Below the pieces are notes generated by a model. It was not told where the DNA came from. It worked only from the letters and a program-made list of their open reading frames with translations, and searched no databases. A stretch of 64,000 nucleotides of DNA from positions 2,900,539 to 2,964,538 of the forward strand of contig NZ_FXXA01000002.1 in NCBI RefSeq assembly GCF_900184265.1. The letters run 5' to 3'. The stretch is from Eggerthella timonensis. GTDB lineage: Bacteria > Actinomycetota > Coriobacteriia > Coriobacteriales > Eggerthellaceae. The position numbers and the translations under genes are program-made. Shown piece by piece: positions 44,128 to 55,611 of the stretch; within the stretch, counting starts at the first letter, position 1; every line of letters starts with the position of its first letter.

Positions 44128-46506
44128 CTAACGCCGAGACCCTTCGGCGCGCGTGCAGCGGCGCGCGATGGCGAGCGTCGCGAGCGCGGCGAGCGCTGCC
44201 GCGGAAAGCCACGCACCTGCGGCCCCGTCGCCCGTCGAGGCCAAGGCGGCGGGCGACCCCGGCGTCGGCGTCCCGGTGCCGGCGCCCGCAGCGCCGCCTG
44301 CGCCCGCGCCGCCGCCCGTCGCGACAGGAAGGTTGCGAAGCGCTCCCGACCATGCGGAACCGTCGCTCGTCTCGACGCTCGCACGCAGCGTCCCCTCGTC
44401 GTCTGCAGCGATCGTCAAAACGAGCTCCACGTTCGACAGGACGTATCCGTCGGGAGCTTTCGTCTCCCGGATCTTGTAGCGGCCGGCCGGCAGGTCGGAG
44501 AACGTCAGCGTCCCCTCCGGGTTCGACGAAACCGCCTCGCACAGCATCGCCCCCGCCTCGTCGTACAAGGCGAATGCGGCGCCCGCAAGCGGAAGGCCCT
44601 GCTCGTCGGCCTTCGTCAGCGAGAACGAGGCGACCTTGAGCCGGTTCGTAATCGTGATCGCCGTGGCCGCCTCGGTCACGCTCGACTCGTAATCCAGCGG
44701 AACGCCTACCTCGGACACGGAGTACGAGAAGCTCTCGCCCTCGTTGTTGTACGCAGGCAGCCTCACCGAAAGATCGTCGCCTTGCGGCACGACCGCGTCC
44801 ACCGACGCTCGCCATCCCGTCGCCCGCACAAGCTCCAGAGGCTCGCTTCGGGTCCACGCGTCGGCCGCGGTGACCGGCTCGCGCACCACCGTGTATCCAA
44901 CGGAGCTGGGGCGCCGATCCGAATAGTCCACCTCCGCGCCGTTCGCGCCTCCCACGTTCACGGTATCGTCCCACTCCTTCGCGACGTCGAGGACGATCGA
45001 CGGGGCCTTAACAGACGGCACCGGGAAGAAAGCGGTCTCGCCGTCGCCCAAGCGGTCGAGCGTCGTCGCCCCGTTCGCGGGATGCCAAACGTCCGGGCGG
45101 AAGCCACGCGCTTCGGTGTCGAGCCGTACGCGGTACTCGAGCACGATGCGCTCGTCGGAACCGAGGGAAAGGCCCGACATCCGGATCGCCCCGTCCTCGA
45201 ACCCCACCTCCACCGACGAGGCGATCTGCGGGTTCTCGGCCCAGGTTCCATCCGGCCCCTTGCGGTAGCCGGCGAGCTCGTAGTCGTCAGGGCCGAAGCC
45301 CGACGCGCTCTGCTGCAGGATGACGCCCTCCCCCATCGGATCGGCCACCGTGCCGCCGCTGACGGTTTTTCCGATGCGCGACGCGACCCCCGCGAGCGCC
45401 TGGGAGAGCCCGGCGAGGTCGGCGTCGATAGCGACGTAGCGCGTCTCGCCGTCGGAAGCCATGTTGTACGCGGTGTATTTGCCGCGCGTCGAGGGGTCGA
45501 CGCCGATGGAGAATATCTCGATGCCGCCGTCCTTGAGGTCGATCGCCGTGCCCAGCGTGAAGTTCGACAGCATCTGCCGATCGTCGGTCGGAACGGCGTT
45601 GGGATCGGACGTCGTCAATGAGGCGTAGTAACGCTCCGAGCCCGTTTGGAACGAGGTGATGTACGAATCGGCAGAGTAGCCGCCCATGGCGACGATCCGC
45701 CCGTCGTTCGGATACGCCGTCGCGCCGTCGGTCGGAAGGTACGCGCAGTTCGCGCTGCCGTCGCCCACATGGATGAGCAGATGGCGGGCGTCGGCGCGGC
45801 CTTGGCTTTGAAAGAGGCGCTGCGCCTCGTACAGCCCTTTCTGGACGAACGTTCCGCTGCCGCTTTTGGCGGTGTTCTCGAGAAAGCCCAGCACCTCGTC
45901 GGGGTCGGTTGCGAAGCCGCCCATCGCATACGCCTCGCGGTTGTAGGCGACGGCGGCGACCCGTATGCGCCCCGCCTCGAGCGGGTCGGCCACCGCGCCG
46001 AGGAAGTCGCGCACGCCCGCAAGCGCGTTCTCCAGCTTCGTTCCCGACATCGTGGACGAGAAGTCGATGACGAGCACCACGTCGACCGGGTTCTCGATCT
46101 GATTGCCCTTGATGTCGAGCGTCATGCCGAACAGGCCCTGGGAGCCGGGCACCTCCTCCGCCGATTTCTTCAAGAACGCAGCCCCGCGATCAGAAGACTC
46201 GTCGGGGACGATGACGTAGCCCTCGTCGTCCAACCGCACCGTGCCGCCCGCCTCGGGCAGCTCCGCGCCGGGCGTTTGGGGATAGTTCCACACGACGCCC
46301 TCGCCCGAGCCGTTCGCCAAGACGATGCCGTCGTCGCCTTCGTCGTACGAATAGCGCCCGTCGGGAACCGTCGTGACCGCGAACGAAGGCGCAGGCGCCA
46401 GCGCGAAGAAGAGCGCGATCGAGACGAGCAGCCCGATCAGCGTCGCCCTGCGCACCCCCTCGCCTCTCGAACCCGTGCCCGAAACGACGCGAACCATCGT
46501 AGCCAT
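44128..46506 (-). CDS. Cell-surface adhesin/pilin-like protein: VWA and SpaA-like domains, LASTG anchor
   Basis: The 792-residue secreted protein has a signal peptide (residues 18-43, ending PSFA). A von Willebrand A domain with MIDAS-like DFSSTMS near 150 (a DxSxT form) follows, then a Cna_B-like region at about 500-620. A SpaA-type prealbumin repeat lies at about 630-720 ([23 protein letters not shown], given in part; [14 protein letters not shown]). A Gly/Ala/Thr/Pro-rich linker leads to LASTG near 755, one membrane helix and an Arg-rich tail. This is a pilus-tip or MSCRAMM layout. No sortase or other pilin gene is in the window. GAGGAGAG precedes ATG 46506. Confidence 0.88.
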
Positions 46507-46796
46507 GCTCTCTCCTCACCGTGCGTGATCTCGCTTGCGCTTGCTCCACCGCGATCGCCTGGCGCGCGCCATCTCATCGCAGTTCGCTCATCGTAGCGTC
46601 TCCCGATTCTCGCGCGTCGAACGGTTGACGAGACCGTGCCAAACGGTTTGCAGAGCGTCACCCGTCGCGACGGCAGCGCTTGCGCATTCTGCTTGAAGTA
46701 TCGCAGGGCCTCGTGGACGAAGGCGGCGGGGAAGTCGATAATGGCCTCATCAGCCCCGCGCCGGCATTGCGGCGCCGTCCACCGAAGGAGCAAGGC

Positions 46797-48605
46797 ATGA
46801 TCAACCAGTTCTGCAAGAAACCGCTGTGGGAATGCTCGAAAACCCTTTCCGCCGTGGCCCAGGGACTCGCGCCCGCCGACACGGTGATCAGGGGAGCGAA
46901 GCTCGTGAACGTGTGCACGGCCGAGATCCAGGAGGACGTGGACGTGGCCATCGCCGAGGGCCGCATCGCCTACCTCGGGCAGGCCGACCACTGCATCGGC
47001 GAGAGCACGCAGGTCATCGACGCGGAGGGGCAGTACATCGCGCCCGGGTTCCTGGACGGGCACATCCATGTGGAGTCGTCGATGATGGGCGTGGGCGAAT
47101 ACGCGCGCGCCGTCGTGCCGCACGGCACCGTCGGCATCTACTGGGATCCGCATGAGATCTGCAATGTGCTGGGGCTCGAAGGCGTGCAGGTGATGGCCGA
47201 GGACGCGCAGCGCACGCCGCTCAAGGCCATGATCACCACCCCCTCGTGCGTGCCCGCCGTGCCCGGCTTCGAGGACACCGGCTCGTTCATCGGACCCGAC
47301 GACGTCGCCGAGACGATGGCGTGGCCGAACGTCGTGGGCCTCGGCGAGATGATGAACTTCCCCGGCATCCTGGGCAGCACCGACCACGCGCACGGCGAGG
47401 TGGGAGCGACGCTGCGCGCCGGCAAAATAGTGACCGGCCATTACTCCTTGCCCGAAACCGACCGCGGCCTGAACGCCTACATCGCCTCCGGCGTGCGCTG
47501 CTGTCACGAATCGACGCGTCCCGAAGACGTGCTCGCGAAGATGCGCCTCGGCATGTACGCGCAACTGCGCTACGGCTCGGCATGGAAGGACCTGCCCGTG
47601 CTGGGCGAGGCCATTCTGGCGAACGACATCGACACGCGTTTCGCCATGCTCGTGAGCGACGACACGCATCCGCACACGCTGGTAGCCGACGGACACCTCG
47701 ACCACATCGTGCGAGTTGCCGTCGATCTGGGGATCGACGCCGTGACCGCCATCCAGATGGTCACCATCAACTGCGCCCAGTGCTTCCAGATGGACCACGA
47801 CCTGGGATCCATCACCCCCGGCAAGTGCGCCGACATCGTGTTCCTGGACGACCTGGAAAGCCTGCAGGTCACCCGCGTGCTCATCGACGGCGACGTCGTG
47901 GCCGAGAACGGACGCCCGCTGTTCGACTTGCCGCCGTTCCAATTCCCGGAGTGGGTGACGCATTCCATGCATCTGGGCCGCGAGCTCACGGCGAAGTCGT
48001 TCGCCGTGGCCGCGCCCGAGGGCACGCGCGATGGCGATCGCGTGCGCGTGCGCGCGATCGAGGTCATCCCCGGGAAAGTGGGCACGAACGAGGTGCACGT
48101 CGACCTGCCGGTGGTCGACGGCCGATTGGAATCCGACCTCGAGCAGGACGTGCTCAAGACGTTCGTGTTCGAGCGCCATCACGAGACGGGCACGTGCGGT
48201 TACGGCTTCGTGAAGGGCTTCGGCATCAAGCGCGGCGCGATGGCCTCGACGGTGGCGCACGATGCGCATAACCTGCTGGTCGTGGGTACGAACGACGAAG
48301 ACATGGCCCTGGCCGCGAGCACGCTCGCCGCGTGCGGCGGCGGCATGGTCGTGGTCGCCGACGGCGAGGTGCTGGGGTTGGTGGAGCTTCCCATCGCCGG
48401 CCTCATGGACGCGCTGCCCGCCGAAGCGATGAGCGAGAAGGTGCATCGGCTGGAGAAGACGTGGGCCGAGATCGGCTGCACCATGCCGTCGCCGTTCATG
48501 ACGATGGCGCTGATACCGCTCGCCTGCCTGCCGGAGCTGAGGCTGACGAACCGAGGGCTGGTGGACTGCACCAAGTTCGAGTTCGCTGATTTGGTGGTGG
48601 AATAA
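46797..48605 (+). CDS. ade: Adenine deaminase
   Basis: The 602-residue amidohydrolase converts adenine to hypoxanthine and ammonia for purine salvage. Metal ligands sit in PGFLDGHIHVESSM near 82, and GEMMNFPGI near 182. Others are in SDDTHPHTLVADGHLD near 284 and the second-domain HHETGTCGYGFVKGF near 460. The length and two-domain shape are those of AdeC-type enzymes. AAGGAG lies 6 bases before ATG 46797. The 290-base region upstream, shared with the divergent adhesin gene, contains an AACGGTTGACGAGACCGT-like imperfect dyad near 46620 but no clear promoter. Purine control is likely but not visible. Confidence 0.95.
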   Translation: MINQFCKKPLWECSKTLSAVAQGLAPADTVIRGAKLVNVCTAEIQEDVDVAIAEGRIAYLGQADHCIGESTQVIDAEGQYIAPGFLDGHIHVESSMMGVGEYARAVVPHGTVGIYWDPHEICNVLGLEGVQVMAEDAQRTPLKAMITTPSCVPAVPGFEDTGSFIGPDDVAETMAWPNVVGLGEMMNFPGILGSTDHAHGEVGATLRAGKIVTGHYSLPETDRGLNAYIASGVRCCHESTRPEDVLAKMRLGMYAQLRYGSAWKDLPVLGEAILANDIDTRFAMLVSDDTHPHTLVADGHLDHIVRVAVDLGIDAVTAIQMVTINCAQCFQMDHDLGSITPGKCADIVFLDDLESLQVTRVLIDGDVVAENGRPLFDLPPFQFPEWVTHSMHLGRELTAKSFAVAAPEGTRDGDRVRVRAIEVIPGKVGTNEVHVDLPVVDGRLESDLEQDVLKTFVFERHHETGTCGYGFVKGFGIKRGAMASTVAHDAHNLLVVGTNDEDMALAASTLAACGGGMVVVADGEVLGLVELPIAGLMDALPAEAMSEKVHRLEKTWAEIGCTMPSPFMTMALIPLACLPELRLTNRGLVDCTKFEFADLVVE

Positions 48606-48625: not shown

Positions 48626-48658
48626 TCTGGCCGCTCATTGCAAGCGCGAGCGGCCAGA
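48626..48658. terminator. Hairpin between convergent ade and mcrC
   Basis: TCTGGCCGCTC and GAGCGGCCAGA form a perfect 11-bp stem around an 11-base loop, in the 61-base gap between the genes. No T tract follows on either side, so termination may be partial. Confidence 0.55.
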
Positions 48659-48666
48659 TGGAATTG

Positions 48667-49755
48667 CTAGCCGCAATCCATGCTGTCAAATATCTCAAGC
48701 ATCTGCGATTCAACAACCTGCCAACTGGCATCAAGGTCGACCGTTCTGACATGCAACGACCCTTCGGACAGTACGACATCCTCGCACAAACGCCTCCCGT
48801 TCAGAGGATAGAGCAGGCACCCATGCACCTCATGGAACTTCATCAATGAAGCGGTACGAGCATTCGACATGTAACTGTAAATCTGATATAGGTTTTCAGT
48901 TTTAAACTTGCTCCCATCGCGCAAGGCCTCCCGATAGTACTTCGCATCGATGATAAAAAGCCGAGACGAGCCGACGTCGGATATCGTTTCAATCCAGATG
49001 TCGGCTTCCATGCGGGGCATAAAGGGACAGATATCGGTGGAGTCTCGCGTCGCCCAGGCGATAGGTTTGTTCTTCTCGAACACGACGTAACGAGATCCTT
49101 TAAGACGCGGCAGCTCTTTGCGATAGAACGCTCGAGCGAACTTTTCAAAGATATGATTCAGCGTAGTTCGCTCCGAATCGCTCATGAGGACACCGTCAGC
49201 ACCCTCCAAAGGAAGCGTATGGCGATAAAGCAGTGAGCAAAGCGATATGACGAATCGATATCGCGAGGTCGTGCGGTTGAATACGATGCGCGAGAGAACT
49301 TGCTCAGTCGGAGCGACAGGATCAATCTCCTCGAATGAGGGGTATGCCGCCCTAACCAGTCTCCGGGTTTCTGCATGCTCGCTGCACACGCTCATCAACG
49401 CATGCGCGACGATACCGTTCAGGTCGTTGTTGGTGGTGTACTCATCGGGCCTACATACCAGTTTTTGATCGAGACGTGCAACATGAGAGAAGGATTCCTT
49501 CATGTTCACAGGTCCTCTTGGAGAAGCAGTGCACGCCTCGAAAGAGACGTACTCGCGGGCAAGACCCAGCTGGGCGATGTTCTTCGCCTCACGCGCCACA
49601 AGATACGAAAGAAGGTCTTCGACTCCCTCGAATCGCCCCGCCTCACCCGTGAGGCATTCGTCGAGAAGGTAACGGCCACTCCATGCGTAGCAGAGCATAT
49701 GATAGATATTGCGAACAGGGATTCCCCCGCATCGCAATTCTGTTGAACGAGTCAC
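48667..49755 (-). CDS. mcrC: McrC-type nuclease subunit of type IV restriction system
   Basis: The 362-residue protein is the McrC partner. The N-terminal McrC domain (IPVRNIYHMLCYAW, residues 12-25) is followed by a PD-(D/E)xK nuclease core at about 235-275 (MEADIWIE, then LFIIDAKYYREAL). It cuts DNA bearing modified cytosine when recruited by McrB. The start is a GTG at 49755 with no clear ribosome-binding site, 14 bases after mcrB, so translation probably depends on coupling. Base composition is about 50% GC against roughly 65% in the surroundings, a sign of acquisition by transfer. Confidence 0.88.
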   Translation of the reverse strand: MTRSTELRCGGIPVRNIYHMLCYAWSGRYLLDECLTGEAGRFEGVEDLLSYLVAREAKNIAQLGLAREYVSFEACTASPRGPVNMKESFSHVARLDQKLVCRPDEYTTNNDLNGIVAHALMSVCSEHAETRRLVRAAYPSFEEIDPVAPTEQVLSRIVFNRTTSRYRFVISLCSLLYRHTLPLEGADGVLMSDSERTTLNHIFEKFARAFYRKELPRLKGSRYVVFEKNKPIAWATRDSTDICPFMPRMEADIWIETISDVGSSRLFIIDAKYYREALRDGSKFKTENLYQIYSYMSNARTASLMKFHEVHGCLLYPLNGRRLCEDVVLSEGSLHVRTVDLDASWQVVESQMLEIFDSMDCG

Positions 49756-49769
49756 GATAAGTCTGACTG

Positions 49770-51629
49770 CTACTTGCGAGCGCCAGCAAGTTCTCGAAGC
49801 GGCGCAACGTAACTCGCGATAATGTTCGGAGCAGCGTCAAACCAATACTCTTCGAGAAGCGGCGCAATCTCGTAATCTACGATGGATCCCAACCAGGATT
49901 GAGCTGCGGAAACATCCATTACGCCATCATTATCGGGAGCGTCGAGAAAGAAGCTGTGACCGATGCACAAGCCTCGCCCCCGTTCCTCCTCGATTCTTGC
50001 ATTGAGTTCCCGCACCGAAGCTATGAGAGCATCGGCAAAGTCAGCGGGCATGAGTTCGTACAGCCTCTTTCGAAAACCGTCCTGTTGAAATGCAGGTCTC
50101 ATCTCGAAATACGCGAATCGGCGACGCAGCGCATAATCCATTGTGGCAATCGAGCGATCCGCAGTGTTCATCATACCGATAATGTAGATGTTCCCGGGAA
50201 CGGAAAAGCCGTTGCGTCCATCCTGCAAACGCACTCCAACCGTCTCCCCTCGGTGCTTCTTCTCAACCGTCATCAGCATCTCGCCCATAACCTTGGAAAC
50301 GTTTGCTCGATTGATCTCGTCGATGATGAAAAAGTATGCCTCCGTGGAAGCCTCGGCTCGCTGGCAAAGCCGAGTGAACGTCCCGTTTTTCAGCTTAAAG
50401 CCACCGTTTTCTGTGGGTCGATAGCCAACGATTATGTCCTCGTACGCAGTGCTTTGATGGAATTGCACGAACTCGATTCTGCTATCATCTTTCTTTCCCA
50501 TTAGCGACCATGCGAGACGTTTCGCAGCATAGGTTTTACCGGTGCCGGGAGCGCCCTGCAGTATCACATTGCCCTTTCGCCTGAGAAGTTCAACAAGTCG
50601 GTCATACTCAGTCTCGTCCATGAAAACGTCGTGCAAGAAGTCTTTCGGACCATACGGTTTAGCTTCGATCGCTGCTTCTTCGAGTTCGGAAAGCTCGGCA
50701 TCCTCTCCTTCGACTACAGCATCGTAGCGACCAACCCACAGCGGATCGGAAATGAACGCCTCAATATCTTGAACATCGTCGTTGAACGCGAAGTCTATCA
50801 GAGCTCCACGTTTCCAATCCTGTAAGTCACGCCTAATGAAGTTAAATGCTGGACGCAGAGTGAAGAACAACCATTCGCGCGGTTCGTAGTCCTTATCCCA
50901 ATCGACTCGCAGCGTTTTTCCATCGCAAGGGTTGTATCGAACCGTGCCTCGCGCCTTGATTTTCATTACCGATACGGTTTCTTCGTGATTGTCGAACGGC
51001 AAGTCGTACTTGCGCGTGTACGCCGCCTTGATAGCTATCGATGTACCTTGCTGGATAGCGTTGATCTGGTCAGCATATTTCTCTTCGTAACCGCACTGCC
51101 AGATCCCCTCCGAGAGAAATCCCTCGGTCATATCAACGCCATTAATTGATGCTCCCACAAAATATGCAAAAAGCGGCTGATCAGGCGATGGATTAAGATC
51201 AGAATCAGCATCAGGCACGTCTAAGGAGTAGTATTCGAACCCCGGATTAGCACTTTCTTTGCCGGCGTCCGCTCCTAAAGAGCGCTGCGCGGCTTCGAGC
51301 GAACGAATAGCGTTGACCTGCGCGATAATTTCAGACGGGTCACCGTCAAGCGCCAACCTTCCTTTTTCAGTTAGCTCCCATGTGCTCCGCGCAGGATTCT
51401 CAACCATGCCAATCTTTTTTAGATCGGTCCGTGCCCAAGCAAGACGATAAGAAACTTCCGATTTCGTAGATCCGAGATGGGGGAAAGAAACGACTTCGTT
51501 CGAAAAGCCCATGAGATCAATGACGCGCTGATCGATTTCCTCGTTCATGGCCCGACCACCCAATTCTTCGAGTGCTCGCAATACGTACGGCATCATTTTT
51601 ATATAGGTCGGACCCGTAAACTTGGCCAT
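49770..51629 (-). CDS. mcrB: McrB-type AAA+ GTPase/ATPase with N-terminal Mrr-N domain
   Basis: The 619-residue protein drives McrBC restriction. Residues 1-90 are an Mrr_N-like winged helix (DLMGFSNEVVSFPHLGSTKSEVSYRLAWARTDLKKIG, quoted only by its ends DLMGFSN and LKKIG). A central ~130-residue domain (PLFAYFVGASI to WLFFTLRPAF) is likely to be the modified-DNA sensor. The AAA+ motor starts near 345, with Walker A GAPGTGKTY near 357, Walker B FFIIDEINRAN and the McrB signature MNTADRS near 488. GGAGGGG precedes ATG 51629. It heads the mcrBC unit and is divergent from the RloC-like ATPase. GC content is low. Confidence 0.88.
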   Translation of the reverse strand: MAKFTGPTYIKMMPYVLRALEELGGRAMNEEIDQRVIDLMGFSNEVVSFPHLGSTKSEVSYRLAWARTDLKKIGMVENPARSTWELTEKGRLALDGDPSEIIAQVNAIRSLEAAQRSLGADAGKESANPGFEYYSLDVPDADSDLNPSPDQPLFAYFVGASINGVDMTEGFLSEGIWQCGYEEKYADQINAIQQGTSIAIKAAYTRKYDLPFDNHEETVSVMKIKARGTVRYNPCDGKTLRVDWDKDYEPREWLFFTLRPAFNFIRRDLQDWKRGALIDFAFNDDVQDIEAFISDPLWVGRYDAVVEGEDAELSELEEAAIEAKPYGPKDFLHDVFMDETEYDRLVELLRRKGNVILQGAPGTGKTYAAKRLAWSLMGKKDDSRIEFVQFHQSTAYEDIIVGYRPTENGGFKLKNGTFTRLCQRAEASTEAYFFIIDEINRANVSKVMGEMLMTVEKKHRGETVGVRLQDGRNGFSVPGNIYIIGMMNTADRSIATMDYALRRRFAYFEMRPAFQQDGFRKRLYELMPADFADALIASVRELNARIEEERGRGLCIGHSFFLDAPDNDGVMDVSAAQSWLGSIVDYEIAPLLEEYWFDAAPNIIASYVAPLRELAGARK

Positions 51630-51790
51630 AGCCCCTCCATTATTGCAGCTTCATCGCGTAGCGAAGTATACGTCATCAACCCATCAATTTATAGCCGCAT
51701 CACCACGTACACGAGCTATTATGCTTGAAGTGGCACATTTCACTGCCTTATGATGGCGTTACTAATCCGCATATAGCGAGGAGTCCACGC

Positions 51791-53977
51791 ATGGGCAGTA
51801 TTGATATTAGCTTTAAAAATTGCCGCAATATTGCCTCCGTCGTCGACGGTTCCTTGCATATCGCAGAAAACACTTTAAACATCTTCTACGCCGCTAATGG
51901 CACAGGAAAAACTACTATAGTACGTATCTGTGACTATCTGTCAAAGAGAGGGACGGACGAAGAAGGAGCCGCTTACGAAGCATTGCGATCATTCGCAAGC
52001 CTCTTCCACCCCAATGACGAGGACGCAAAACCTTCGGTCACGAAACCTGACCGATCGCTCAGCGTAGCTATATTCGATGAAAACTGGGTTGACAAACACT
52101 GCTTCAAACAGGACAGTCTTCGAGACGATGTGTTTCGCATATTTGTAGAAACAGGCGAATACAAGCGACTCGCATCAAAACGAGCCCGAATACTTGCCGA
52201 GATCCAGCAAGTTCTGCACCAAGAGGAAATCGATCTTCTCATAAAAGGATTTCAGAGCTTAAGAAAGGGCATCGGCGCAACGAGCGCAAGCGGGTCCCTC
52301 ATGCAGTCAGCTTGCTATAGCAAAGCTTTCAAACAAGGCTCGCCCCTCGGCTCTGTTCCCGAAAGCATCGAGCCAGTTCTGAACCCGCTTTTGCCCGTAG
52401 AAAGAGCTGATTGGCTTGGTTGGCATATAAAGGGTCTGAAGTTTGCAAAGAACGACCAGCATCGATGCCCCTATTGCGGAACCGTAGACGATGCCCTGAT
52501 GCACGCTTGCATCGCCTACGACGAATCACGTACCGACGCACCGGCGAACGGCTGGCTCAAAACCGCAACGGCTTTTGCCGACAATGCCTCCTTGTTCAAC
52601 AACAACTCATTATATGTCGCGAATGCGGTTCTTTCTGCAGAATCGAATCCTACGGCCGATAACGACGAATACTTCGCCATTATCTCAAGAAGGGCAAACG
52701 AAGTTGCAGACACTTTGTCTTCGCTGAAAAGTCTTCACCTCAATGGAACAATCGATACCCCGTCTATAAAAGCTCAAATACAGGACGCTCTCACAAAGCT
52801 CGCCTGTAAACACCATGTGTTTTCGGAGAAAATCGAAATCACACTATCCACCATCACCGATATTTTGCATAAAGCGTTGGATAACATCGAAAAAGCAGCA
52901 GCGATGATAGCAGAACAGAACTCGCTCATTGAATCGGCAGTGAAAAATCACGAGGGCGAGATCAATACCTTTTTGAAAGAAGCGGGATATAACTATGAAG
53001 TAGAGTTGGAGGTAGATGAAAAGGGTGCGGCTTCTCTGATCCTGAAAGATGCTGACAGTGCTTATCCCGTTTTGGGGTCAAAAGATCATTTGAGCTACGG
53101 CGAGAGAAATGCCATAACTCTCATTCTTTTTCTGTATGAAGCGCTTGAGGCCGAACCTGATCTGGTCGTTCTTGATGACCCAGTATCATCCTTCGACGGA
53201 GACAAAAGATTTGCTCTTCTTTATACGCTCTTTTCTCCCTGTCAGCAATTGCTTTGCAACAACCTCCAAGATACGACGGTTGCCCTATTCACTCACGACT
53301 TTCTCGTTGTTTCAGATTGGCTCAAGGTTCTCAAAAACACACATGGAGGTTCGGGCATCAAAGCCAATTGCCTCCGAACCAATGAAACCGGAAGCATTCT
53401 CTGTCGCCAAATCAAGTGTAACGATATCGAGGATTTTCGATCCATCACCTACAAGAAAGCTCAACATAGCGCGAATGATTTATCTCGGCTTATTTACGCT
53501 CGGCAGTTGGTGGAACTGGAAAAAGGCGTCGACGAGTCTCTAAAACCAGCATGGAATGTTCTCTCCTCCCTTTTCCATAAACGCGAATACGCCACCGATA
53601 ACAAGGGGAATATACTCGACGATAACGATATGGGTTCGGCCTGCAACTACATACATGACTTGACGAGCATCCAGTTCGCATATCAAGAATGGTACGAACG
53701 GGTTAAGAACGGCTCGTCGTATATCGTTTCATGCTACGAACAGAGCGAATCAGCTTACGAAAAACTGCAGTTCGTCCGGATTATTCTTGAGAAAAGCGAC
53801 CTTCTCTCAACTTGCGATAAGACAATCATGACAAGATTCGCTGACGAAACGTACCATATCGGAGGGGATTATCTCTATCAACTCGATCCTTGCGCATTCC
53901 AACAAGTACCGAATTATGTCGAATCTTGGTGCGACGACATCGTTGCTAAATACAAAACAAAGCACCAACTGGACTGA
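51791..53977 (+). CDS. AAA_13/RloC-PrrC-like ABC ATPase with CPYC zinc-hook motif
   Basis: The 728-residue ATPase has Walker A NGTGKTT near 36, an ABC signature LSYGERN near 437, Walker B VVLDDPVSSFD and an H-loop ALFTHD. This is the split SMC/Rad50-like nucleotide domain seen in AAA_13 proteins. CPYC at 226-229 lies within a helical insertion and could be a zinc hook as in RloC. The C-terminal ~200 residues contain Arg571-x3-Glu575 followed by His596 and His622, which recalls the Arg-Glu-His nuclease triad of PrrC/RloC. The spacing differs, so this is unproven. GAGGAG precedes ATG 51791. GC is about 45%. It is divergent from mcrB, which supports a defence role. Confidence 0.75.
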   Translation: MGSIDISFKNCRNIASVVDGSLHIAENTLNIFYAANGTGKTTIVRICDYLSKRGTDEEGAAYEALRSFASLFHPNDEDAKPSVTKPDRSLSVAIFDENWVDKHCFKQDSLRDDVFRIFVETGEYKRLASKRARILAEIQQVLHQEEIDLLIKGFQSLRKGIGATSASGSLMQSACYSKAFKQGSPLGSVPESIEPVLNPLLPVERADWLGWHIKGLKFAKNDQHRCPYCGTVDDALMHACIAYDESRTDAPANGWLKTATAFADNASLFNNNSLYVANAVLSAESNPTADNDEYFAIISRRANEVADTLSSLKSLHLNGTIDTPSIKAQIQDALTKLACKHHVFSEKIEITLSTITDILHKALDNIEKAAAMIAEQNSLIESAVKNHEGEINTFLKEAGYNYEVELEVDEKGAASLILKDADSAYPVLGSKDHLSYGERNAITLILFLYEALEAEPDLVVLDDPVSSFDGDKRFALLYTLFSPCQQLLCNNLQDTTVALFTHDFLVVSDWLKVLKNTHGGSGIKANCLRTNETGSILCRQIKCNDIEDFRSITYKKAQHSANDLSRLIYARQLVELEKGVDESLKPAWNVLSSLFHKREYATDNKGNILDDNDMGSACNYIHDLTSIQFAYQEWYERVKNGSSYIVSCYEQSESAYEKLQFVRIILEKSDLLSTCDKTIMTRFADETYHIGGDYLYQLDPCAFQQVPNYVESWCDDIVAKYKTKHQLD

Positions 53978-53983
53978 CAATCC

Positions 53984-54580
53984 ATGCCCCTCATCGACGA
54001 CATACGCGCGTACCTACCCTTCAACCAGCAAGAGGTTGCGGATCGCGCCATCATCCTCCAGCAGCTCGAAACCGATCCGCACGTGTTCGACCGCGACTCG
54101 CTCGCGCATATGACGTGCTCGATCTGGACGGTCGACCCGACCGCGACCAGGACGCTCATGGTGTTCCACAACACCTACGGCTCATGGAGCTGGATCGGCG
54201 GGCACGCCGACGGCGAGCGCGACCTGGCGCATGTCGCGCTCAGGGAGCTCGAGGAGGAGACAGGCGTCGTCGAAGCGCGGATCGTGCCGTGCGGGCCGGG
54301 GAACATCTTCTCGCTCGAGGTGCTCACCGTGGACGGGCACGAGAAGCGCGGTCGGTACGTGAGCTCGCACTTGCATCTCAACGTGACGTACCTGGCCGTG
54401 GCCTCGCCGGACGAGCCGCTGCGCGTCAAGCCGGACGAGAACAGCGGCGTGCGCTGGTTCGACCTCGAAGAGGCCCTTACCGCATCCACGGAACCGTGGA
54501 TGCGCGATCGGATCTACCGCAAGCTCGTCGACAAGCTGGCAGCAGTCGACATCGACGCCCAGCGCTCGCGCGTGAGGTAG
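53984..54580 (+). CDS. Nudix hydrolase
   Basis: The 198-residue protein has a Nudix fold with box GGHADGERDLAHVALREL-EEETG near 68-91. The Glu-rich REL-EEETG helix binds metal; the spacing between the first Gly and RE is one residue longer than the canonical box. The family hydrolyses nucleoside diphosphates linked to other moieties. The substrate is not deducible. The gene begins 6 bases after the ATPase gene but returns to the high GC of the chromosome, so it marks the right edge of the low-GC module. Its last 67 bases overlap the convergent DUF523-GNAT gene. Confidence 0.85.
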   Translation: MPLIDDIRAYLPFNQQEVADRAIILQQLETDPHVFDRDSLAHMTCSIWTVDPTATRTLMVFHNTYGSWSWIGGHADGERDLAHVALRELEEETGVVEARIVPCGPGNIFSLEVLTVDGHEKRGRYVSSHLHLNVTYLAVASPDEPLRVKPDENSGVRWFDLEEALTASTEPWMRDRIYRKLVDKLAAVDIDAQRSRVR

Positions 54581-55611
54581 TACAGCTCTAAGTCCTGCGT
54601 GAGTCCGTCCGGGGTCGCCTCAGCGCCGTGGAGGGTGCCCTCGTGGACGAACCCCGATTTCTCGATCACGCGGCCGGAACGCTCGTTGAACGTATAATGC
54701 GTACATGTGATCAGGCCGAGCCCCAGCTCCTCGAAACCGTAGCGCAGTACCTCGCCCGATGCTTCGGTCATGTAGCCGCGGCCCCACGCGCTCCGCGCGA
54801 GCGCATAGCCCAGCATGAGGCAGTCGACGTTGCGGCGCTGCGGGTCGCGGATGAGCCCGATCGATCCGATGCACGGCCCCACGGCGCCGGCACCGGCGCC
54901 CTCCCCCGCTGAAACCTTCTCGAAAACGCCGAACACGTGCGGCTCGCGCGCGATCACCTCCACGAACACGCGCGCGTCCTCGCGCGTGCGGTGCGGCGCC
55001 CATCCGGCGTCGGGGCCGACGGCGGGATCGCTGCAGTAGGCGAACACGTCGTCGATGTCGTCGGACGTCAGCGGGCGCAGCACGAGACGCTCCGTTTCGA
55101 GAACCGGGCACTCCGCCGACGTCGCCGCCAGCACGGCCGGCGCCTGGCCCGGGCGCCGCGCCTCGCCAGCTTCAAGGCAAGCCGCAAGCTGCACCTCGTC
55201 GAGCGTGCGCACCCCCGCCTCGCGCAGCGCCCGCGCCGCCACGCCGTACCCGGGCACGAGCGTGCCCGTGAACGTGCCGTCGTACACGAGGCCGCATCCG
55301 CACGAGGGGCTCTTCGCCTTGAGAACGGCCAGCGTGCAGCCCCGCTCCTGCACCAGCTCCACCGTTTTGGCGGCCCCGGCCAGAAACGCGTCCGTGGCGT
55401 CGCCCCCGTCCGCATCCACCACGCGCAGCGCGCGCTCGGCGGCGACGATCTCGCAGGGCATGCGCGGAACGGGCAGCCCTCCGAGCGTCTCGGGGCATAC
55501 GCTCACAAGCTCGTGCGTCGCACGCAGCTGCAACACGGCCTCGCACGGACGCGATTCCCCGTCATAGCGGCAGGGTTCGCCCAGCAGGCACGCGCTCACG
55601 GCTATCGGCAT
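54514..55611 (-). CDS. DUF523-GNAT fusion protein
   Basis: The 365-residue protein joins two domains. Residues 1-150 are DUF523 with the paired Cys motifs VSACLLGEPCRYDG and KSPSCGCGLVYDG. Residues 165-365 are a RimJ/RimL-type GNAT acetyltransferase (LETERLVLRPLTSDDID, SAWGRGYMTEASGEVLRYGF with acetyl-CoA loop, FNERSGRVIEKSGF). DUF523 is usually stand-alone or fused to DUF1722. A fusion to GNAT is unusual. The DUF523 cysteines could bind metal or a cluster. The acetyl acceptor is unknown. The 3' end overlaps the Nudix gene on the other strand, so the two may interfere. Confidence 0.85.
   Translation of the reverse strand: MPIAVSACLLGEPCRYDGESRPCEAVLQLRATHELVSVCPETLGGLPVPRMPCEIVAAERALRVVDADGGDATDAFLAGAAKTVELVQERGCTLAVLKAKSPSCGCGLVYDGTFTGTLVPGYGVAARALREAGVRTLDEVQLAACLEAGEARRPGQAPAVLAATSAECPVLETERLVLRPLTSDDIDDVFAYCSDPAVGPDAGWAPHRTREDARVFVEVIAREPHVFGVFEKVSAGEGAGAGAVGPCIGSIGLIRDPQRRNVDCLMLGYALARSAWGRGYMTEASGEVLRYGFEELGLGLITCTHYTFNERSGRVIEKSGFVHEGTLHGAEATPDGLTQDLELYYLTRERWASMSTAASLSTSLR

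Follow-up and report, generated by a model that had tools for sequence, protein, structure and literature searches.

A compact McrBC and RloC-like ATPase cassette at a defense exchange site in Eggerthella

Introduction

The closest described relatives of the locus reported here act on DNA and on RNA, respectively: McrBC cuts modified DNA, and the anticodon nuclease RloC cleaves tRNA once DNA breaks have activated it (PMC2610378, PMC12707154). RloC proteins are defined by the signature R-X3-E-X36-52-H, in which Ser often precedes the His (PMC2610378), and comprise 658 to 897 amino acids (aa) with ABC motifs (Walker A, signature, Walker B, and His) and a CX2C zinc hook within the coiled-coil insert, while PrrC, found with the type I system EcoprrI, is an ABC ATPase of 341 to 416 aa that has no zinc hook and lies within the type I locus. 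The idea that an attack on DNA in a type IV context may be followed by RNA-based suicide was proposed earlier for the CoCoNuTs, type IV systems with HEPN RNases (PMC11090510). Here we examine a 64,000-nucleotide stretch of the Eggerthella timonensis genome (RefSeq assembly GCF_900184265.1, contig NZ_FXXA01000002.1, positions 2,900,539 to 2,964,538; hereafter the window), in which the genes for a McrBC pair adjoin the gene for a RloC-like ATPase. Together these genes make up a 5.4-kb anti-phage unit inserted between ade and a NUDIX gene.

Results

Three long, uninterrupted open reading frames fill positions 48667 to 53977 of the window. The gene for the nuclease subunit, mcrC (48667 to 49755, minus strand; 362 aa), and mcrB (49770 to 51629, minus strand; 619 aa) are spaced by 14 base pairs (bp), and the gene for the RloC-like ABC ATPase, of the PADLOC PDC-S06 subfamily PDLC04889 (51791 to 53977, plus strand; 728 aa), faces the other way across a divergent intergenic region of 161 bp (51630 to 51790). 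The ATG at 51791 is preceded by GGAG, and an alternative TTG start lies at 51725. Orientation and gap agree with the original prediction, made from the sequence of the window. The GC content of 45 to 50% that it had put forward applies to the ATPase gene (46.6%) and is slightly exceeded by mcrC (52.6%) and mcrB (51.2%), against 66 to 69% in the neighbors; GC at third codon positions (GC3) is likewise 0.51 to 0.60 in the three genes versus 0.89 to 0.95 around them. Both promoters could be located in the 161-bp gap; a promoter scan of the block returned promoter-like matches no commoner than in shuffled sequence.

A near-identical relative of the cassette is present in Eggerthella sinensis DSM 16107 (G054/L002). 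The three genes are 97.3 to 97.7% identical in DNA sequence between the two species and the gaps 98 to 100%, compared with 89.7% for ade, 84% for the NUDIX gene, and 79 to 83% for the further flank. This excess of identity over flanks of 79 to 90% indicates that the cassette was transferred in one piece once the species had separated, and bears out the view that the three genes form one module. The 61-bp gap between ade and mcrC, 100% identical in E. sinensis, is absent from the other two Eggerthella genomes.

The same position holds other genes in other Eggerthella species (one genome per species, few species compared). In G202, whose flanks are 92 to 96% identical to those of the window, homology breaks off precisely with the stop codon of ade and resumes precisely at the NUDIX ATG; the interval (L070:3996-5560) is occupied by a GmrSD_N gene (E = 3e-29) followed by a RiboL-PSP HEPN gene (E = 6.6e-18), at 40 to 48% GC. 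In G070 it contains genes and repeats that by eye make up a type I-C CRISPR-Cas locus, after which the NUDIX gene follows (L071:4500-12900, L138:627-1208). With three different defense sets at one position, the ade|NUDIX junction qualifies as a defense exchange site in Eggerthella. Neither an integrase nor a tRNA nor flanking repeats were found, and the cassette ends show no convincing direct or inverted repeats.

The pairing of McrBC with the ATPase is confined to this single cassette, seen in two species. Relatives of the ATPase occur in 9 of 398 Coriobacteriia genomes, 7 of 397 from the order, 4 of 396 from the phylum, and 4 of 250 from the family of G604 (the samples overlap), as well as in 882 plasmid records, mostly at full length, and about two dozen viral-type contigs; none was found in sequenced phages. 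For 38 additional loci whose ATPase relative is essentially full length, lying in 8 genomes, on 8 plasmids, and on 22 viral-type contigs and amounting to about 30 distinct sequences, we surveyed the neighbors by annotating long open reading frames and running selected family scans; some of these neighborhoods are cut by contig ends. McrBC adjoined the ATPase at none of the 38 (tblastn with the window McrB and McrC, E < 0.001 or E < 0.01). Conversely, 138 genomes from the bacterial family include 22 with McrB relatives; no ATPase relative was seen in any of 18 McrB neighborhoods besides the Eggerthella one, of which 16 have a McrC that could be detected, and the closest McrBC relative (McrB 61% and McrC 47% identical) is among these 18. 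No McrB relatives were found in viral contigs. These counts lend no support to the specific wiring between type IV restriction and the ATPase that the original prediction had proposed. The survey of pairing frequency that it had called for showed neighbors varying in related genomes, which is much of what it had itself named as grounds for giving the proposal up.

Other restriction systems do stand beside ATPase relatives. The nearest kin in the tree form a fully supported group, with several long branches, that comprises the proteins of the window, E. sinensis, G136, G762, and G298. In G136 the genes for HsdM, HsdS, a GmrSD-like protein, HsdR, and the ATPase all lie on one strand (L016:7959-16467, L141:2607-7554). 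Type III Mod and Res genes are directly upstream of the ATPase gene in three loci (G856, L103, and L100), the row of mod, res, and PDC-S06 ATPase running on one strand with genes overlapping or about 55 to 200 bp apart (L137:2947-10115, L103:2864-10220, L100:3101-10124). A viral-type contig (L101:1-10154) carries an HsdS end (identified by eye), a type I HsdR, and Hachiman HamA and HamB ahead of the ATPase, and on Citrobacter, Klebsiella, and Enterobacter plasmids the ATPase gene is followed by a type II methylase and endonuclease. Linkage of the family to type I, II, and III restriction thus recurs, which is a statement of recurrence and not of enrichment.

Many relatives stand without restriction genes, so that a restriction partner is not obligatory. 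The loci without a nearby restriction gene have vapBC on Escherichia coli plasmids, conjugation genes in Variovorax, or phage genes in viral contigs, and across all relatives the neighbors vary widely, taking in TIR, caspase-like, Abi_2, Hachiman, vapBC, and SbcCD genes. Many plasmids of E. coli, Salmonella, and Klebsiella carry a relative that is annotated only as an AAA ATPase (examples are L027 and L032), and vapBC adjoins it in both E. coli/Salmonella plasmid records examined. In one further locus (L102:3942-10100), SbcD- and SbcC-like genes are directly upstream on the same strand, placing a Rad50-type pair beside the Rad50-like ATPase.

The ATPase matches the PADLOC PDC-S06 model PDLC04889 over its full length (E = 1.8e-148, model positions 2 to 690 of 693), with weaker matches to Pfam AAA_13 (8e-18), PADLOC LmuB (2.3e-10), and PADLOC PrrC (2.7e-4). 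It shares with PDC-S06 the layout of ABC motifs, CPxC, and C-terminal domain; the PADLOC candidate system is a single gene with no assigned mechanism, whereas the window gene adjoins McrBC. Motif invariance was judged over 29 aligned full-length relatives. The Walker A motif NGTGKTT (residues 36 to 42; 51896 to 51916, plus strand) has N36, G37, G39, and K40 invariant, and almost every position is invariant in the ABC signature LSYGE (residues 434 to 438) and the Walker B/D-loop LDDPVSSFD (residues 461 to 469; together 53090 to 53197, plus strand). Between Walker A and the signature, with helices on either side, lies a CPYC motif (residues 226 to 229; 52466 to 52477, plus strand) with C226, P227, and C229 invariant, a putative zinc hook. 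Structure models, built from shallow alignments, gave fold matches of the full chain (pLDDT 79) to Smc and Rad50 heads and to retron PtuA.

By these features the protein classes as an SMC/Rad50-type ABC protein and, in line with the original prediction, as a divergent protein related to the RloC/PrrC group. A locus from a different member of the bacterial family (L140) encodes a protein fitting the RloC motifs (R-X3-E-X38-SH plus CPFC) that matches the sister PDC-S06 model PDLC04898, and the two proteins can be placed in one broad group since both match PDC-S06 models.

The C-terminal part (residues 535 to 728; 53393 to 53974, plus strand), modeled alone with AlphaFold2 (pLDDT 87, pTM 0.86), is predicted to be an all-helical domain and is the putative effector. 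R571-X3-E575 (53501 to 53515, plus strand) would supply the first two residues of an RNase-like triad and H689 (53855 to 53857, plus strand) the third, all of them invariant in every aligned relative. The stretch between E575 and H689 is X113 in the window protein and 105 to 121 residues among relatives, and the residue before the invariant His is Y, C, or another. The same His belongs to R682-X6-H689, conserved as [RK]-X6-H with Arg or Lys as the basic residue (the HEPN motif is R-X4-6-H). A HEPN domain was found neither by Pfam nor by PDB profile nor by Foldseek, the domain had no Foldseek match among PDB folds at E below 1, and hhalign detected no likeness to the RloC C terminus. H596 (in LFHKR), considered as the catalytic His, was discarded because some relatives have Asp or Lys at that position. 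The three invariant residues suggest a possible RNase and suicide activity.

In its 728 aa the protein fits the RloC size range, and it has in common with RloC (PMC2610378) the split ABC ATPase with a CX2C zinc-hook motif, the R-X3-E followed by a later invariant His, and an occasional linkage to restriction loci. It differs in the Glu-to-His spacing (105 to 121 versus 36 to 52), in having no Ser before the His, and in a C-terminal domain that is not detectably alike. Identity with RloC was rejected on the triad spacing and the C terminus, and we regard the protein as RloC-like rather than RloC by definition. With PrrC it shares the idea of an RNase-type triad and of an ABC ATPase beside a restriction system; identity with PrrC was rejected given the length of the protein, its CPYC motif, a match to the PrrC model of only 2.7e-4, and a genome in which no type I HsdR was found.

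McrBC, by its conserved catalytic motifs, is a conventional and intact type IV restriction pair, as had been proposed; systems of this kind cut modified DNA in a GTP-dependent manner. McrC matches Pfam McrBC (1.1e-25) and, along its length, the structure of E. coli McrC (6hz4_M, 5.1e-24), with which its PD-(D/E)xK nuclease residues align (MEADIWI...IIDAKYY; D, DAK). McrB matches E. coli McrB (6hz4_A, 4.5e-71) and has an AAA+ GTPase domain (residues 325 to 599; Pfam AAA_5, 5.7e-23) with the Walker A motif GAPGTGKT and MNTAD (NxxD). Since the McrC D/DAK residues and the McrB GTPase motifs are kept, the nuclease should be functional. The likeness to E. coli McrBC thus extends to the NxxD GTPase, the D..DAK nuclease, and the mcrB-mcrC order, and the difference lies in the reader end of McrB, which here consists of a Mrr_N domain (residues 9 to 94; Pfam, 5.2e-16) and an unnamed domain. 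For the latter (residues ~95 to 330; 50640 to 51347, minus strand) no Pfam family was found at E up to 10 and no PDB chain by profile; it is kept across three genera at 45 to 56% identity and is a candidate for a new domain that reads modified DNA.

Discussion

Overall, the cassette is a compact mobile defense set whose parts are of known kinds, and the new wiring proposed for it rests on one cassette. The reading we favor, at about even confidence, is that of two complete defenses stacked together and moving together, with the ATPase acting by itself. As the protein families suggest, McrB would recognize modified bases and drive McrC to cut phage DNA; the Rad50-like head and putative zinc hook of the ATPase would sense broken or abnormal DNA; and the C-terminal domain of the protein would then arrest the infected cell, perhaps, like RloC, by cleavage of tRNA. 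The ATPase would form a second line for which binding to McrBC is not needed, and the pairing would be due less to an obligatory molecular partnership than to shared transfer at a defense site. This reading is favored by the intact motifs of McrBC and the ATPase, the Smc/Rad50 fold, the joint transfer of the block, the different defense genes that two other Eggerthella genomes have at the site, the ATPase genes standing without restriction genes on E. coli plasmids and many prophage-type contigs, and the lack of McrBC beside all 38 other ATPase loci.

Several points weigh against independent action. The recurrence of the ATPase family with type I, II, and III loci, including the mod-res-ATPase strings, hints at a real link to restriction, and McrBC would be the candidate partner here because the genome is without a type I HsdR. 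A system whose parts work jointly would likewise be expected to be transferred together and to have a divergent promoter region in common, and no experiments on any member of the PDLC04889 subfamily were found in the literature searched. A PrrC-style guard of the type IV system, in which McrBC or its assembly on DNA silences the ATPase until a block or failure of McrBC releases it to stop translation, would draw on the same facts: the joint transfer of the three genes as one block, the full type I locus of the close kin G136, the type III mod-res pairs in three loci, the type II genes on plasmids, and the missing HsdR. An Arn-like DNA mimic is an example of such a block, as T4 Arn inhibits McrBC (PMC12707154). 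We nevertheless consider a guard unlikely and rank independent action above it, because the pairing is unique and the ATPase is widespread without McrBC; moreover, the closest McrBC relative (McrB 61% identical) has no ATPase beside it, many ATPase relatives have no restriction genes, and the genes point in divergent directions, whereas prr and the type III loci have theirs in a single operon. The broader idea of a partner-indifferent restriction guard, one ATPase family joined to restriction loci of types I, II, and III and, in this cassette, IV, whose McrBC form would sense failed restriction of modified DNA and arrest the cell via a novel helical RNase domain, appears improbable.

At the opposite end, two unrelated defenses may have met fortuitously at an insertion site, being neither functionally related nor regulated in common. 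That the ade|NUDIX site swaps whole defense gene sets and that the neighbors of ATPase relatives vary widely would fit such an encounter, but the clean three-gene block, its common divergent promoter region, and its joint transfer after the species split make it doubtful. A further alternative concerns the chemistry of the effector and overlaps the other readings, which do not hinge on it: the ATPase may be no RNase but an SMC-like DNA sensor, as are Lamassu LmuB and the retron-associated PtuA, with the C-terminal helical domain a new effector or partner-binding module. The Smc/Rad50 and PtuA fold matches, the LmuB match (2.3e-10), and a C-terminal domain that matches no HEPN family, solved fold, or RloC C terminus lend it weight; the invariant R-X3-E...H, which parallels the proven triads of RloC and PrrC (PMC2610378), and the PADLOC grouping with RloC-type proteins in PDC-S06 speak for an RNase instead. 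It is a serious if tentative possibility, falling a little short of an even chance.

Even if the wiring were real, the concept would not be new, because the CoCoNuT proposal precedes it (PMC11090510). The locus shares with the CoCoNuTs the idea of DNA attack first and RNA-cleaving suicide second; those systems have NxD GTPases and coiled coils and form one operon, whereas the window McrB has NxxD. Identity with a CoCoNuT was rejected on the MNTAD motif and the Mrr_N N terminus of McrB, which is not an NxD GTPase fused to a long coiled coil. If the ATPase truly backs up McrBC, the restriction-guard principle known for PrrC with type I systems would extend to modification-dependent restriction, and would account for a bacterial answer to phages that combine modified DNA with a block of McrBC. 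The RloC-like PDC-S06 subfamily itself stands beside four kinds of restriction systems and is carried on hundreds of enterobacterial plasmids, and the ade|NUDIX site offers a compact place to seek new defense sets in Eggerthella. At that site in G202, the GmrSD_N and HEPN genes overlap by one base and form a candidate small two-gene defense.

The left border of the exchange site, outside the cassette, is ade, by eye an adenine deaminase gene (46680 to 48605, plus strand; high GC, GC3 0.89). A hairpin in the ade/mcrC gap at the left cassette edge (48626 to 48658; RNA fold -24 kcal/mol, z -3.05) is likely a two-way terminator. The right border, also outside, is the NUDIX hydrolase gene (53984 to 54580, plus strand; Pfam NUDIX, 8.8e-13), whose ATG lies 6 bp past the ATPase stop (53977 to 53984). 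The NUDIX gene directly follows the last defense gene in G202 too, and its expression may depend on the resident cassette. Farther out, as judged by eye, a gene for a fusion of a DUF523 protein and an acetyltransferase (54514 to 55611, minus strand) overlaps at its end with the NUDIX gene on the opposite strand, and a large surface protein of the cell wall that contains a von Willebrand-like domain (44128 to 46506, minus strand) is encoded upstream of ade.

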